A DNA stretch of 64,000 bases from the NCBI RefSeq assembly GCF_001045435.1, contig NZ_LFNG01000009.1, forward strand, positions 62,001 to 126,000, given 5' to 3'. The notes beneath the pieces were generated by a model, which ran no database searches, was not told where the DNA came from, and worked only from the letters and a program-made list of their open reading frames with translations. This document shows, in pieces, positions 23,748-56,260 of the stretch. This DNA is from Chryseobacterium koreense CCUG 49689. GTDB lineage: Bacteria; Bacteroidota; Bacteroidia; Flavobacteriales; Weeksellaceae. Each line of letters starts with the position of its first letter. Position 1 is the stretch's first letter. The translations under genes and the position numbers were made by a program.

Positions 23748-23760
23748 TTCATAGAATAAA

Positions 23761-23802
23761 GAGCATAGAGCATAGAGCATAGAGCATAGAGCATAGAGCA
23801 TA
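23761..23802. repeat. Tandem heptamer repeat, six copies
   Basis: GAGCATA is repeated six times without mismatch, ending 20 bases before the ATG of the SanA-like gene. Seven is not a multiple of three and the run holds stop codons, so it is not coding. Its position in the promoter/leader makes copy-number change a possible expression switch. Confidence 0.85.
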
Positions 23803-23822
23803 GACGAAATTAGTAAGTGCTG

Positions 23823-52281: not shown

Positions 52282-53418
52282 ATGCTAAAAAAAACGCTTC
52301 AAGGTTTTGCCGCCGCCTTGGCTTTACTGATCGCACTTGCTTACAGTTTCGGTTACGACTACCTGTTCAAGGGAATTCGCGAAACCTACTTGCGGGGAGA
52401 AACCGGCTCATCCATTGAGGACGGAAACTATTTCCCATCGCACCTCATCGCGAAAGGGCAACCGATTCCCTGGCAAAAAGATTCACTTTACAACAAAAAA
52501 CCTTTACCGAACGATTTAGTTGATGCCTTGAATAAATCAAAAACAGTTTCCTTTCTCGTCATCAAAAATGGGAAACTCCTTCATGAAGAATACTGGGACC
52601 ACTACAACCAAAATTCAAAAACCAATTCTTTTTCAATGGCAAAAGCAGTCAATGTGATGCTTCTGGGAAAAGCAATAGAGGAGGAAAAAATCAAAGGTCT
52701 GGACCAGAAATATTCGGATTTTTTCGAAAACTATAAAAATGTGGAATTCGGGAAAGACCTCACCATTGGCGATTTGGCTAAAATGGAAGCCGGTCTCGAC
52801 TGGACTGAAAACTATAAAAACCCGTTCCTTCCCAATGCAAAAGCATATTACGGGAAATCTTTAGCAGAAGCCGTTTTCCTGCGCGGATTCAAGGAAAAAC
52901 CGGGAACCAAATTCGAATATCAAAGCGGCGCTTCCCAACTTCTGGGATTCGCCATCAGAAAAGCGATTGGCAAATCCATAGCGGAATACACCTCCGAAAA
53001 ACTCTGGAAACCTCTCGGAATGGAGCAAAACGCAGACTGGACCGTGGATGAAAACGGAATGGAAAAAACCTTTTGCTGCATCCAGTCCAATTCCCGTGAC
53101 TTCGCAAAACTCGGACAATTGTTTTTGGATGGCGGAAAAGTCGGGAACCTGCAAATAATGAATCCGGCTTTCCTGGAAGAAATGAAAACGCCCACCAAAC
53201 TATCAAACGGAGTTTATGGAATGGGACTTTGGATCAATGAGGATGCCCCGATCAAACATTACTATTTTCGCGGGCTTTATGGACAATACATCATCATCAT
53301 TCCCGAAAAACAAATGGTGCTGGTGAGAACCGGAACCTATAAGGATGAACAGCAGGATGAGAAAGGACGGCCGCAACTGGTGAGGTTCATGGTGGATGAA
53401 GTGCTGAAGAACTTCTGA
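52282..53418 (+). CDS. Serine hydrolase, beta-lactamase class C fold, membrane-anchored
   Basis: 378 residues. A single N-terminal helix (about 8-28) precedes the catalytic domain: SxxK as SMAKA (about 117-121), YQSGAS (Y-x-S at the YxN place) and VRTGTYKDE as the KTG-like end. The substrate is unknown. It ends at the edge of the repeat array: the stop codon TGA lies in the sequence TGATTAAGC, which resembles the repeat unit boundary. Confidence 0.88.
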   Translation: MLKKTLQGFAAALALLIALAYSFGYDYLFKGIRETYLRGETGSSIEDGNYFPSHLIAKGQPIPWQKDSLYNKKPLPNDLVDALNKSKTVSFLVIKNGKLLHEEYWDHYNQNSKTNSFSMAKAVNVMLLGKAIEEEKIKGLDQKYSDFFENYKNVEFGKDLTIGDLAKMEAGLDWTENYKNPFLPNAKAYYGKSLAEAVFLRGFKEKPGTKFEYQSGASQLLGFAIRKAIGKSIAEYTSEKLWKPLGMEQNADWTVDENGMEKTFCCIQSNSRDFAKLGQLFLDGGKVGNLQIMNPAFLEEMKTPTKLSNGVYGMGLWINEDAPIKHYYFRGLYGQYIIIIPEKQMVLVRTGTYKDEQQDEKGRPQLVRFMVDEVLKNF

Positions 53419-53467
53419 TTAAGCTGGAGTTCCGGTTGGTGCATTTGATTTCTAACACTCCTTTTTG

Positions 53468-54106
53468 TTTGCTAATTGATCCTATTTTTCTTGACGCAAA
53501 GTTTTATGTTTTGCAACGCACTATTTTAAGAAGGCAAAGTCTGGTCCGCTGCCGCGGACTGATCAAGCGTTTGGTGGGATGCCGCCGTATTTGGAATTTA
53601 AGGCGCGCCAAGAACATTGTTCTTTCTAGTGTTTTTAAACTTCGTTTTGTTTGCGAATTGATCCTAATTTCTTGACGCAAAGCTTTATGGTTTGCACCGC
53701 ACTATTTTAAGAAGGCAAAGTTTGGTCCGCTGCGGCGGACTGATCAAGCGTTTGGTGGGATGCCGCCGTATTTGGAATTTAAAGGTGCGAAAAACATTGT
53801 TTTTTCTAGTGTTTTTAACTTCGTCTTGTTTGCGAATTGATCCTATTTTTCTTGATGCAAAGTTTTATGTTTTGCAACGCACTATTTTAAGAAGGCAAAG
53901 TTTGGTCCGCTGTGGCGGACTGATCAAGCGTTTGGTGGGATGCCGCCGTATTTGGAATTTAAGGCGCGCCAACAACATTGTTTTTCCTTGTCCCTTTAAA
54001 ATAATTTTTGTTTGCAAATTGATTTAATTTTTTCTGACGCAAAGTTTTATGTTTTGTGCTGCACATTTAAGTAGACAAAGATTTCCGACAAGACGGTTGA
54101 TCAAGC
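53468..54106. repeat. Repeat array A: three 179-182-base tandem units plus a diverged fourth
   Basis: Units begin at 53468, 53650, 53829 and 54011 with TTTGCnAATTGATC-like sequence. Each full copy carries ACGCAAAG, AAGAAGGCAAAGT, a hairpin GTCCGC-nnnn-GCGGAC with loop TGCC, TGCG or TGTG, then TGATCAAGCG and GGAATTTAAGG. The fourth copy is shorter and its hairpin resembles array B. Open frames here are low-complexity translations of the repeat. No spacers are present, so this is not CRISPR. Confidence 0.9.
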
Positions 54107-54131
54107 GTATGAGGGAACAGTGCAAATCTGG

Positions 54132-54509
54132 TTACAGATTATTTACGACCCGATGGATTCCGTTTTTCAGCAATGCGCTGTTAAAATTAATAATCAACCC
54201 GAGTTTAATTCCCGACAGTTTTAAATAAGTTTTTGTGCGTAAAAAATCGGTTGGATGTATTTCATGAACCGACTTATTCTCTACAATTACTTTTTCCTCT
54301 ACAATCATATCGATCCGATAAGCTTTGTCAATTTGGGTTTCCTTGTAAATAGTCGGTTGATAAACTTGTGTCCTCACCTGAAAACCCAACTTTTCCAACT
54401 CATATAAAAGCGCAGCTTCATAGGCGCTTTCCAAAAGTCCAACACCTAATGTTCGGTGTACTTCCAAAGCAGCACCAATGATCGCATAGGAAAGCTCGTT
54501 TTCAGTCAT
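54132..54509 (-). CDS. GxxExxY protein (PDDEXK_3 nuclease-like)
   Basis: 125 residues from ATG 54509. GLLESAY (24-30) is the eponymous GxxExxY motif. YRIDMIVEEKVIVENKSV supplies the Asp67 and Glu77-x-Lys79 of a PD-(D/E)xK core, so the nuclease-like site looks intact. The end (NFNSALLKNGIHRVVNN) is typical. The family is multicopy in many Bacteroidota genomes and has no established function. It lies between two repeat arrays in opposite orientation. An open frame to 54620 would read array B and is rejected. Confidence 0.9.
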   Translation of the reverse strand: MTENELSYAIIGAALEVHRTLGVGLLESAYEAALLYELEKLGFQVRTQVYQPTIYKETQIDKAYRIDMIVEEKVIVENKSVHEIHPTDFLRTKTYLKLSGIKLGLIINFNSALLKNGIHRVVNNL

Positions 54510-54531
54510 CTCTATTTTCCGATAAAAATAG
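54510..54531 (-). repeat. Hairpin just upstream of the GxxExxY start codon
   Basis: TCTATTTT and AAAATAGA form an 8-bp stem directly before the start codon, between it and array B. It could limit translation or mark the element edge. Confidence 0.4.
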
Positions 54532-54557
54532 AAATTTATTTTCAATTCAAACACCCA

Positions 54558-54906
54558 CTTAATCAACCGACTTGTCGGAAAACTTCGCCTCCTTAAAAAC
54601 AATTGCCTCCTTAAAAACAACGCGCCGCATCAATAAAACTTTGCGCAAAAATTTCCCTTAAAAATCAAAAACCAGAAGCATCCAATTTCCACAATTCAAC
54701 CACCAGCTTAATCAACCGACCTGTCGGAAAACTTTGCCTCCTTAAAAACAATGCGCCGCATCAATAAAACTTTGCGTAATAATTCCCCTTAAAAATCAAA
54801 AACCCAGCGTCCAATTTCCTCAATTCAACCACCAGCTTAATCAACCGACCTGTCGGAAAACTTTGCCTCCTTAAAAACAACGCGCCGCATCAATAAAACT
54901 TTGCGT
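54558..54906. repeat. Repeat array B: three tandem units, inverted relative to array A
   Basis: Units begin at 54558, 54707 and 54836 with CTTAATCAACCGAC. They are 149, 129 and about 70 bases long (the last truncated). Each holds CCGACnTGTCGG (small hairpin), CTTTGCCTCCTTAAAAAC and CAATAAAACTTTGCG. Read on the minus strand the core is homologous to array A (ACGCAAAGTTTTAT, AAGGAGGCAAAGT, hairpin, TTGATTAAGC). The first unit has an internal duplication of TTGCCTCCTTAAAAAC. Confidence 0.9.
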
Positions 54907-54943
54907 ATTATCTCCATTTAAGATTTGATATCTTTTATTTCCG

Positions 54944-54971: not shown

Positions 54972-56192
54972 ATGTTCGATTTACAAAATATCAGAAAACA
55001 GTTTCCAATCTTATCCCAAAAAATAAACGGCAAAGACTTGGTCTATCTAGATAATGCAGCGACCTCACAAAAACCTGTGCCGGTATTGGATTCGTGGCAA
55101 AAATACTACACCGAAACCAATGCAAACGTTCACCGCGGCATCCATACTTTGAGCCAGATTGCAACTGAAGAAATGGAACTTTCAAGGCAAAAAGTTCAAA
55201 AATTCATCAATGCTAAAAATCATTTCGAAGTCATCTTTACCAAAGGAACCACGGAAGGCTTAAACCTCATCGCATATTCTTTGACCAATTGGATCAAAGC
55301 AGGGGATGAAATCATCATCTCACACCTGGAACACCACTCGAATATTGTGCCATGGCAAATGCTCTGTGAAAGAACCGGCGCCAAACTGAAAGTGATTCCC
55401 ATGGATGAAAACGGAACCTTGCAACTCGATTACCTGGATGATAATTTGAGCGAAAAAACCAAAATCGTTTCCGTCAACCAGGTTTCCAATGCTTTGGGGA
55501 TTGTGAATCCCATTGAGCAAATTATTGCGAAGACCCGCGCAAATTCAAACGCCTTCATCGTCATAGACGGTGCGCAATCTGTTCCCCACCAGAAAATTGA
55601 CGTTCAGAAAATGGACTGCGATTTCTTCGTTTTCTCCGGGCACAAAATGTATGCGCCGATGGGAACCGGAATTCTTTACGGAAAAGAAGAAGTGCTTAAA
55701 AAAATCCAGCCTTTCCATGGCGGTGGCGAAATGATTGCGACCTGCACCTTCGAGAAAACGACTTATGCAGACTTGCCGTTTAAGTTTGAGGCAGGAACAC
55801 CAAATGTCGGCGGAAATATTGCTTTGGGCGCCGCGATCGATTTCATGGAAAATATCGGACAGCAAAATATTCAAAATCACGAAAACGCCTTGCTGGATTA
55901 TGCCCAGAAAAAACTCTTAGAAATCGACGGCTTGAAAATCTATGGCGAAAAAGCGGTGAGAACCGGCGTGGTTTCCTTCAACCTGGAAGGAGTTGGGATT
56001 TCGTCCGACGTGGGAATGATCCTGGACAAACTGGGAATCGCCGTGAGAACCGGCCACCACTGCACCCAGCCGATTATGAATTTCTTCAATATTGCCGGAA
56101 CCGTTCGTGCGAGCTTTGCGGTGTACAACACTTTTGAAGAAATCGATATTTTGGCGGATGGAGTCAGGAAAGCGCAACGAATGCTTTCTTGA
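54972..56192 (+). CDS. sufS: Cysteine desulfurase SufS
   Basis: 406 residues. A PLP enzyme that transfers sulfur from cysteine for Fe-S cluster assembly. YLDNAATSQKP, HLEHHSNIVPWQ, the PLP lysine in FSGHKMYAPMG and the catalytic Cys in RTGHHCTQPIM are seen. Class II (SufS) character is shown by the NVHRGIHTLS motif. No other suf genes are adjacent, so it may be a split copy. It starts 65 bases after array B. Confidence 0.95.
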   Translation: MFDLQNIRKQFPILSQKINGKDLVYLDNAATSQKPVPVLDSWQKYYTETNANVHRGIHTLSQIATEEMELSRQKVQKFINAKNHFEVIFTKGTTEGLNLIAYSLTNWIKAGDEIIISHLEHHSNIVPWQMLCERTGAKLKVIPMDENGTLQLDYLDDNLSEKTKIVSVNQVSNALGIVNPIEQIIAKTRANSNAFIVIDGAQSVPHQKIDVQKMDCDFFVFSGHKMYAPMGTGILYGKEEVLKKIQPFHGGGEMIATCTFEKTTYADLPFKFEAGTPNVGGNIALGAAIDFMENIGQQNIQNHENALLDYAQKKLLEIDGLKIYGEKAVRTGVVSFNLEGVGISSDVGMILDKLGIAVRTGHHCTQPIMNFFNIAGTVRASFAVYNTFEEIDILADGVRKAQRMLS

Positions 56193-56260
56193 TTACTCAC
56201 CGGTTTTCTTGCCACGAATTCACGAATAATACATTCAAAGTAGCACGAACGCATCATATT

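Follow-up and report, generated by a model that had tools for sequence, protein, structure and literature searches.

Inverted arrays of short words bracket most GxxExxY nuclease genes and may be the ends of a mobile element: a locus of Chryseobacterium koreense and its counterparts

We analysed a stretch of 64,000 nucleotides (the window), which is part of contig C9 of the 3.15 Mb genome of Chryseobacterium koreense CCUG 49689 (G000 below). A first-pass annotation had noticed in it a GxxExxY nuclease-like gene between two inverted tandem-repeat arrays. The features of the locus are the following, in coordinates of the window:

52282..53418, forward strand: upstream host gene, serine-hydrolase-like (open reading frame; its family matches are all below the curated cut-offs).
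53463..53640, forward strand: unit A1, outer half-unit of array A, with words and hairpin (repeat search, Tandem Repeats Finder, half-unit alignment).
53534..53569, forward strand: word and hairpin motif GCAAAG..stem..TGATCAAGCG in A1 (motif search).
53641..53820, forward strand: unit A2 of array A (same evidence as A1).
53715..53750, forward strand: the same motif in A2 (motif search).
53821..54000, forward strand: unit A3 of array A (same evidence as A1).
53895..53930, forward strand: the same motif in A3 (motif search).
54002..54127, forward strand: unit A4, gene-proximal half-unit of array A (half-unit alignment; inverted pair with array B).
54132..54509, reverse strand: GxxExxY gene, a PD-(D/E)XK nuclease of 125 amino acids by the TIGR04256 and PF13366 profiles and a structure model.
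54528..54680, reverse strand: unit B3, gene-proximal half-unit of array B (repeat search, half-unit alignment).
54681..54809, reverse strand: unit B2 of array B (repeat search, Tandem Repeats Finder, half-unit alignment).
54810..54935, reverse strand: unit B1, the outermost of array B, as cut for alignment (Tandem Repeats Finder, half-unit alignment).
54972..56192, forward strand: sufS, downstream host gene (open reading frame, family match; syntenic in relatives).
56210..56227, forward strand: solo word doublet TGCCACGAATTCACGAAT, just downstream of sufS (doublet search), which resembles the ends of another element subfamily.

The element starts close to the stop codon of the hydrolase-like gene. 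Tandem Repeats Finder places array A at 53463-54056 (period 180, 3.3 copies, score 939), which confirms the three and a half units of about 180 bases described at first, and array B at 54603-54907 (period 129, 2.3 copies, score 545). According to our unit cuts, array A extends over 53463-54127, where three units of about 180 bp are nearly identical and the one next to the gene has diverged, and array B, cut manually, extends over 54528-54935 on the opposite strand; its three units were rightly counted in the first-pass annotation, but they measure 126-153 bp and not 70-150. The repeat search found two 62-nt inverted pairs between the arrays, at 74-76% identity, one of which (76%) joins 54066-54127 in A4 to 54685-54746 in array B. 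The seven half-units, cut manually and put in one orientation (A4 being taken as 54002-54150), align as a single family: identity, calculated on aligned columns with gaps excluded, is 91-93% among A1-A3, 82-91% among B1-B3 and 76-87% for the remaining pairs, which contain 35-76 gap positions. The two arrays are thus inverted and share a homologous core, as had been claimed.

Every half-unit has the same layout: (G)ACGCAAAGTTTTAT, about 16 bp (more in B3), TTTAAGNAGGCAAAGTTT, a hairpin region and TGATNAAGC. The hairpin region reads GTCCGC..GCGGAC in A1-A3 and is of the TCCGACAAG/AGG..CGG type in A4, whose stem has a mismatch, and in all B units. Because their hairpin type differs from that of A4 and of all B units, A1-A3 look like later tandem copies; because the hairpin region of A4 resembles the B type, A4 and B3 look like the original inverted pair. 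The tandem copies of arrays A and B look like later local duplications of both ends of the element. Other array pieces exist elsewhere in G000, several of them at contig ends: the assembly breaks at word arrays or at a GxxExxY fragment at the ends of C13, C20, C37 and C39 (L005, L010-L014, L016), and copy numbers in draft genomes may therefore be underestimates. A scan of the whole window for exact doublets gave 2 matches, against 0-2 in ten shuffles, so that exact short doublets alone are unusable as a detector. The window also contains, at 23760-23804, 6.4 exact copies of the 7-nt unit AGAGCAT.

The protein matches TIGR04256 with 132.4 bits (cut-off 35) and PF13366 with 125.3 bits (cut-off 22). 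It has G24, E27 and Y30 of the G..E..Y motif as well as D67, E77 and K79, which confirms the 125-residue PDDEXK-type protein with intact catalytic residues of the first reading, with one correction: the Q91 of the QxxxY motif, present in 181 of the 187 aligned locus proteins, is an R in the window copy, the only R among the 187. This Q is a common feature of the family and is not curated as a defining one; the remaining features place the window copy in the family. The catalytic D and E-x-K residues are kept in 184 of the same 187 proteins (the alignment includes the window's own locus, and D was accepted for E77). R91 may impair the window nuclease despite its intact D67, E77 and K79. The structure prediction (pLDDT 96.4, pTM 0.89) gives, with high confidence, a compact PD-(D/E)XK nuclease, nearest Cas4. 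Foldseek returned no match below 1e-3 for this model (best 1.6e-3), hence the likeness to Cas4/RecB-type and Hjc-type nucleases is at the level of the fold only. A solved relative was also sought by sequence, and the sole match, S100-A8 at E 0.77, is not believable. Pfam and NCBIfam gave only PDDEXK_3 and GxxExxY at E <= 0.001, with no Y1 (HUH) domain and no known transposase or recombinase recognised in the gene. No PHROG match was found at E 0.01. A known anti-phage defence protein was rejected (0 families of the PADLOC models at E 0.1), and so was a phage or plasmid vehicle: the L196 protein, our one query, matched 0 of 50,697 phage records and 8 of 72,556 plasmid records. We found the family in 152 of the 296 Bacteroidota genomes sampled, and a single search gave 5,303 clustered homologues. 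We found no function for it in the open-access papers searched, and no title or abstract among the matches listed describes word arrays flanking GxxExxY.

To judge from the synteny of its relatives, the window locus is an insertion between the hydrolase-like gene and sufS. The synteny search covered 36 genomes, G000 included, and returned loci for 29 relatives, in 27 of which the hydrolase-like gene lies within 1.5 kb of sufS. The gap between the two genes is 68-325 nt in 26 relatives, 625 nt in G032 and 1,553 nt in the window. That of G032 contains a decayed GxxExxY gene and array pieces; the other 28 relatives have no GxxExxY match at this site, and gene-less repeat pieces similar to AACGCAAAGNCGCAAAG are found in the gap of L029, L032, L039, L040 and L042. 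In the nearest relative, G028, the alignment of the site begins at 54892 of the window, inside B1: this "empty" site is not pristine, as the aligned stretch starts with an apparent remnant of the outer end of the array. In the window the GxxExxY gene is antisense to both neighbours. Profiles, synteny and half-unit alignment together support the description, already given in the first-pass annotation, of a defined element in which a gene lies between long inverted repeats without a recognised transposase.

How general is this arrangement? TIGR04256 matches were found in 33 of the 36 genus genomes, 119 matches in sum. We retained a genus set of 92 loci, the window's included (the 27 others are fragments or weaker matches, five of them above 100 bits), a phylum set of 30 loci, and a multi-phylum set of 80 loci whose record titles we read as about 12 phyla, mostly Bacteroidota and Ignavibacteria; 78 of these 80 were scored, two being dropped for short flanks. 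For each locus the 300 nt upstream of the gene were aligned with the reverse complement of the 300 nt downstream, and a score of at least 30 was taken as a pass. In the genus set 61 of 92 loci pass, against 0 of 183 control stretches of the same loci, and 8.6% of 1,500 pairs of mismatched arms from different loci reach 30. In the multi-phylum set 53 of 78 loci pass, against 3 of 234 controls; the titles of these 53 are those of about 10 phyla, and the loci of Chlorobiaceae and Eremiobacterota are below 30. In the phylum set 18 of 30 pass, against 6.3% of 600 mismatched pairs. We also used a register-free test, in which some 6-mer must occur at least twice in each arm. The counts are 54 of 92 against 17 of 276 (genus), 13 of 30 against 2 of 90 (phylum) and 43 of 78 against 7 of 234 (multi-phylum). 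The arm score is failed by 31 of 92 genus, 25 of 78 multi-phylum and 12 of 30 phylum loci (32-40%) and the 6-mer count by 41-57% of loci; in some failing loci, for example the copies at the rfbB-rfbA junction, the words are present by eye but out of register. Hence most GxxExxY genes are bracketed by inverted arrays of short repeated words. The first-pass annotation had proposed that GxxExxY genes without repeats elsewhere would make its pairing a matter of chance, and the genes elsewhere turn out to lie mostly in inverted arrays. What they share with the window is the layout of short inverted words and not the repeat sequence, which in its exact form is common only in G000 and G032.

Each arm repeats a short word that is read from its end towards the interior; examples are ACCACAAAAGTCACAAAAG, AACCACATAGTCACATAG, AACACATTAGTCACATTAG, GCCACGAATGCACGAAT, TTTAACCATTAAGGAATTAAG and TTACACAGAGTTACACAGAG, among others. 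The word differs between elements and is common to both arms of one element. In the multi-phylum set, words recur at 10 bp (431 against 39 in controls), 21 bp (146 against 56) and 31 bp (77 against 15), which is close to the pitch of B-DNA. In the genus, counted with one locus per site, the peak is spread over 8, 9 and 10 bp (50, 54 and 45 against 10, 11 and 12). Comparison of the two arms over 71 phylum and multi-phylum loci shows agreement at 93% in the words and at 62% in the spacers; for 16 genus representatives the values are 88% and 81%, a contrast that is not significant (p=0.09). The contrast is favoured by construction, since a pattern found on a single arm supplied the word positions and the words served as anchors of the alignment.

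We grouped the 92 genus loci by their flanking DNA into 25 sites, and built a tree of 86 proteins on which the word was followed for 24 site-by-word representatives (loci marked "?" by the automatic word count were excluded). The word changes 11 times on this tree, against a mean of 15.05 and a minimum of 12 in shuffles, with 0 of 500 shuffles as low. At site s2 there are two separate protein clades, one with CAAAG and the other with CATTAG/CATAAG words; the CAAAAG word is found in neighbouring protein clades at sites s4, s9 and s23 and in L090 at s13. At site s7, CAAAG and CGGAG words occur within a single clade, therefore the word can change within one clade and site. At L134 (contig C1 of G008, about 809143-810114), four doublets with a spacing of 178 bp adjoin an s12 GxxExxY gene, and extra fragments there match the end of that gene, a parallel to array A of the window.

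Copies of the ends are also found without the gene. The doublet AACCACAAARNCACAAAR, with the CACAAAG word, occurs in 20 of the 36 genomes, 43 times in G006, and its reversed control 3 times in all; summed over the 36 genomes there are 139 CACAAAG doublets for 4 word-matched genes. At least eight exact inverted pairs of them span 139-149 bp (G003, G004, G007, G024 and four in G006), and others span 97-273 bp; three sites of the 139-149 bp type were read. When as many as 4 mismatches were tolerated at each end and the pair closest to 143 bp was chosen, 25 of the 50 loci that we examined had a pair of 124-192 bp; many of these pairs enclose a central palindrome and have T or A tracts on the outside. 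The mini-elements of G006 among L336-L352 are about 140 bp long and have AACCACAAAGTCACAAA ends; several have a GAAAATCTATAGATTTTC-like centre, and some are at sites common to other species. A second pattern, TGCCACGAATKCACGAAT, occurs in 15 of the 36 genomes (control 0), and pairs of only 42-50 bp occur.

These solo copies were counted with copies at the gene excluded and compared between genomes with and without a gene of the matched clade, four genomes bearing the gene in each test and relatedness being ignored; for TGCCACGAATKCACGAAT the expectation (commoner with the matched clade) was fixed before the result was seen. Genomes with the s2 CAAAG clade (G004, G008, G018 and G032, the word of the last read by eye) have 5, 12, 16 and 5 copies of AACCACAAARNCACAAAR, against a median of 0.5 and a maximum of 43 in the others (p=0.0023). 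Genomes with the s12 clade (G006, G008, G016, G033) have 26, 19, 6 and 3 copies of TGCCACGAATKCACGAAT, against a median of 0 and a maximum of 12 (p=0.0011). When solo copies are compared with the non-matched gene, p is 0.07 and 0.18. Genomes whose words are related to the pattern but not the same were counted as "without", namely those with s7 genes for AACCACAAARNCACAAAR, and those with s5 genes or L119 (G032) for TGCCACGAATKCACGAAT; the s7 genes with the related word AAACACAAAGACAC (G009, G012, G021) go with 1, 1 and 0 copies of the CACAAAG pattern. Gene-less end copies are thus commoner in genomes with a word-matched gene, with one clear exception: G006 has its 43 CACAAAG doublets without a matched-clade gene, and carries a 43-position GxxExxY fragment elsewhere.

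The motif of the window itself (GCAAAG, 10-26 nt, TGATNAAGCG) is found 8 times in G000, three of them in the window, 19 times in G032 and no more than twice in any of the remaining 34 genomes; the reversed control gives 3 matches altogether. Its flanks, GCAAAG and TGATNAAG, are conserved in 15 copies of the subfamily. We examined the hairpin on 14 of the 16 36-nt copies of G000 and G032 (two copies of one sequence were omitted) plus one from C39: 83% of cells pair, against at most 40% when the stem is slid, and 7 cells show a double change, against 2.3 in shuffles (0 of 500). The number of pair types is 3, against 4.2 in shuffles (500 of 500 at least as high), and 37 of 500 shuffles reach its 3 double-change pairs. 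The attention first given to repeat hairpins is apt for the window's subfamily; across the family the common feature is the word array.

The junction between rfbB and rfbA, for which loci were obtained from 30 of the 36 genomes, also displays insertion polymorphism. Thirteen loci are empty, with 17-19 nt from the aligned end of rfbB to the start of rfbA; five have GxxExxY with an ACGAATT word; and nine (L137, L141, L142, L146, L150, L152, L161, L163 and L165) have a gene between inverted arrays of words like ACTCAAT, assigned by eye to one kind by resemblance to L163, the only one of the nine submitted to the profile scan, whose protein is an S23/four-helix bundle (TIGR02436, PF05635). One locus has a gap of 95 nt. 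L138 and L155 have a different open reading frame, which fills about 475 nt of the junction, without word arrays by eye, and the junction tolerates several types of insert. Among 30 further S23 loci (L276-L305), 9 reach an arm score of 30, against 1 of 90 controls, and their words recur at 7-8 bp (raw spacing, without control stretches). Empty counterparts exist for two mini-element sites as well; in one of these cases, two genomes carry instead pieces with a CACGAAT-like word. The comparison suggested by the first-pass annotation has thus yielded empty sites at sufS (with the reservation made for G028), at rfbB-rfbA and at two mini-element sites. Its other half, target duplications, gave nothing by eye: none was established at sufS and none is evident at the other three places, where the flanks are T/A tracts and the species compared are diverged. 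Nor did these three places establish a fixed target.

We took as neighbour the longest open stretch on each side, and considered, for GxxExxY and S23 genes only, the loci with co-directional neighbours: GxxExxY genes point in the same direction as such neighbours at 21 genus sites against 1, at 23 against 2 phylum loci and at 63 against 4 multi-phylum loci, and S23 genes do so in 25 cases against 1. This bias suggests that the GxxExxY gene is expressed as part of a transcript of the host, or else that copies lying antisense are lost. By itself it does not favour movement.

The reading that we prefer, and to which we give roughly even chances, is that the element has been spread by its nuclease, which would recognise the word arrays belonging to it, in the way proposed for RAYT and REPs. 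The locus is a short insertion element with a lone GxxExxY nuclease as its sole recognised gene, and its ends are inverted arrays of a short word, joined to a hairpin in the window's subfamily. The helical spacing suggests that the enzyme would most likely bind its own word in several copies along a single face of the DNA, and the intact PD-(D/E)XK residues suggest that it would cut at or beside the element ends. Through binding and cutting, the element and also the gene-less copies that carry its ends would reach new intergenic sites of a genome. Many elements are shared at orthologous sites, so movement would be rare at best. The RAYT-like role put forward in the first-pass annotation receives indirect support from the fit of word and tree, the word-matched solo copies, the gene-less inverted pairs, the lack of phage matches and the few plasmid matches. 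We infer the mobilisation itself, as well as the direction of causation and the route of re-integration. More tentatively, with chances that we put somewhat below even, GxxExxY genes with helically phased inverted word arrays may be phylum-crossing intragenomic mobile elements for which a Cas4/RecB-like nuclease is the lone driver, with a word of its own read by each protein clade and with S23/IVP genes and their 7-8-bp words as a parallel class; both gene families and many intergenic repeats would then have one explanation. The S23 parallel is also the strongest argument for caution on a nuclease-driven reading: S23 is not a nuclease and has the same layout at the same site, so the word-array layout does not need the GxxExxY enzyme.

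It might be instead that the gene-less arrays are native and that GxxExxY is a homing-type nuclease, which cuts them, is copied in by repair and homogenises arrays that are not its own. This would account for the position of the gene between half-units (in three gene-less copies of G032, two motifs stand head to head at this place, 2 nt apart), for the large excess of CACAAAG doublets over matched genes, for the two protein clades at one site and, by gene conversion, for the same word in both arms. We consider it unlikely, as the spread of the gene-less arrays is not explained by homing alone, and the differing words at s2, s7 and rfbB-rfbA would require whole-element replacement or concerted change. 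One may also suppose that host recombination, slippage or some unseen enzyme moves the arrays or makes them grow, GxxExxY and S23 being retained cargo which, for example, protects or tames the element. Two unrelated cargo families with the same layout and site are what passengers would give, and the 63 against 4 multi-phylum genes that point with their neighbours would be expected if the gene were transcribed by the host and kept for a function. Such passengers seem improbable to us, however: the word fits the protein tree across sites, the solo copies follow the matched gene, and the S23 period of 7-8 bp is not the 10, 21 and 31 bp of the multi-phylum GxxExxY arrays, so each family has its own array type.

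Could the arms act in RNA? In an element working like the intervening sequences (IVS) of 23S rRNA, the arms would pair in the transcript and be cut by RNase III, and the pattern in the DNA would be a by-product. S23/IVP genes with the same layout and the strong sense orientation between co-directional genes would agree with this, and passages of PMC4990558 describe IVS elements with complementary ends cut by RNase III. The mismatches between arms, however, show no excess of G-U over A-C (57 against 63 in 71 loci, 84 against 84 over 132 loci), which led us to reject an RNA stem under selection, and the spacers are free to differ. The multi-phylum spacing of 10, 21 and 31 bp fits B-DNA better than the 11 bp of A-form RNA, and the window gene is antisense to both neighbours. 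We therefore regard an RNA-level element as very unlikely. That the gene is paired with unrelated local repeats by chance would agree with the window's exact repeat being common in two genomes only; the arm-score, mismatched-arm and 6-mer controls reduce its probability to almost nothing, and at the level of the family, with 61 of 92 loci against 0 of 183 and 53 of 78 against 3 of 234, we rejected it.

We finally compare the element, read as one spread by its own nuclease, with known systems. The 23S rRNA IVS with S23/IVP genes (PF05635, TIGR02436) is likewise a short element with one small gene and inverted-repeat ends, according to passages of PMC4990558; S23-type genes that are not in rRNA also have the word-array layout, and occur at the rfbB-rfbA site. 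The window element, in contrast, is not in rRNA, lying between the hydrolase-like gene and sufS, it encodes GxxExxY, and we favour recognition of words in DNA over pairing in RNA. Terminal inverted repeats, gene-less short copies and empty sites recall MITEs and insertion sequences; unlike them, no transposase or recombinase is recognised in the GxxExxY gene, no target duplication was seen and the ends are degenerate word arrays. With 125 amino acids only, the window protein also differs from Cas4/RecB-type and Hjc-type PD-(D/E)XK nucleases. The TAACTGA heptamers, sets of short direct repeats in intergenic DNA of Bacteroidetes, Cyanobacteria and Beggiatoaceae (main text of MacGregor 2015, PMC4679880), have a 7-nt unit that resembles S23-type arms of period 7-8, and may belong with them; the terms S23, intervening, four helix and nuclease have 0 occurrences in that main text.

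A close likeness is to REPs and REPINs with RAYT, in which the gene is flanked by its own repeats, gene-less inverted pairs exist (the REPINs described in PMC3116915) and the type of repeat co-varies with the protein. A REP is one tagged palindrome and the common end feature here is an array of short words; the GTAG or CGTC tags given for REP palindromes in PMC3733652 are absent from the window's subfamily, whose flanks are GCAAAG and TGATNAAG. RAYT is a Y1/HUH transposase and the enzyme here a PD-(D/E)XK nuclease, so that the GxxExxY system, having no Y1 domain, the defining feature, is not RAYT. If the nuclease reads its own phased words, the GxxExxY family would gain a function and a body of short intergenic repeats an origin; the family would also supply natural pairs of enzyme and word, with repeated changes of the word, and a type of mobile element moved by a PD-(D/E)XK enzyme alone. 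To our knowledge, and in the open-access literature searched, no system combines such an enzyme, such an end design and such a pairing of word and protein. The likeness of the GxxExxY system to RAYT is one of working and not of membership: a gene is flanked by repeats which are also dispersed as inverted pairs.
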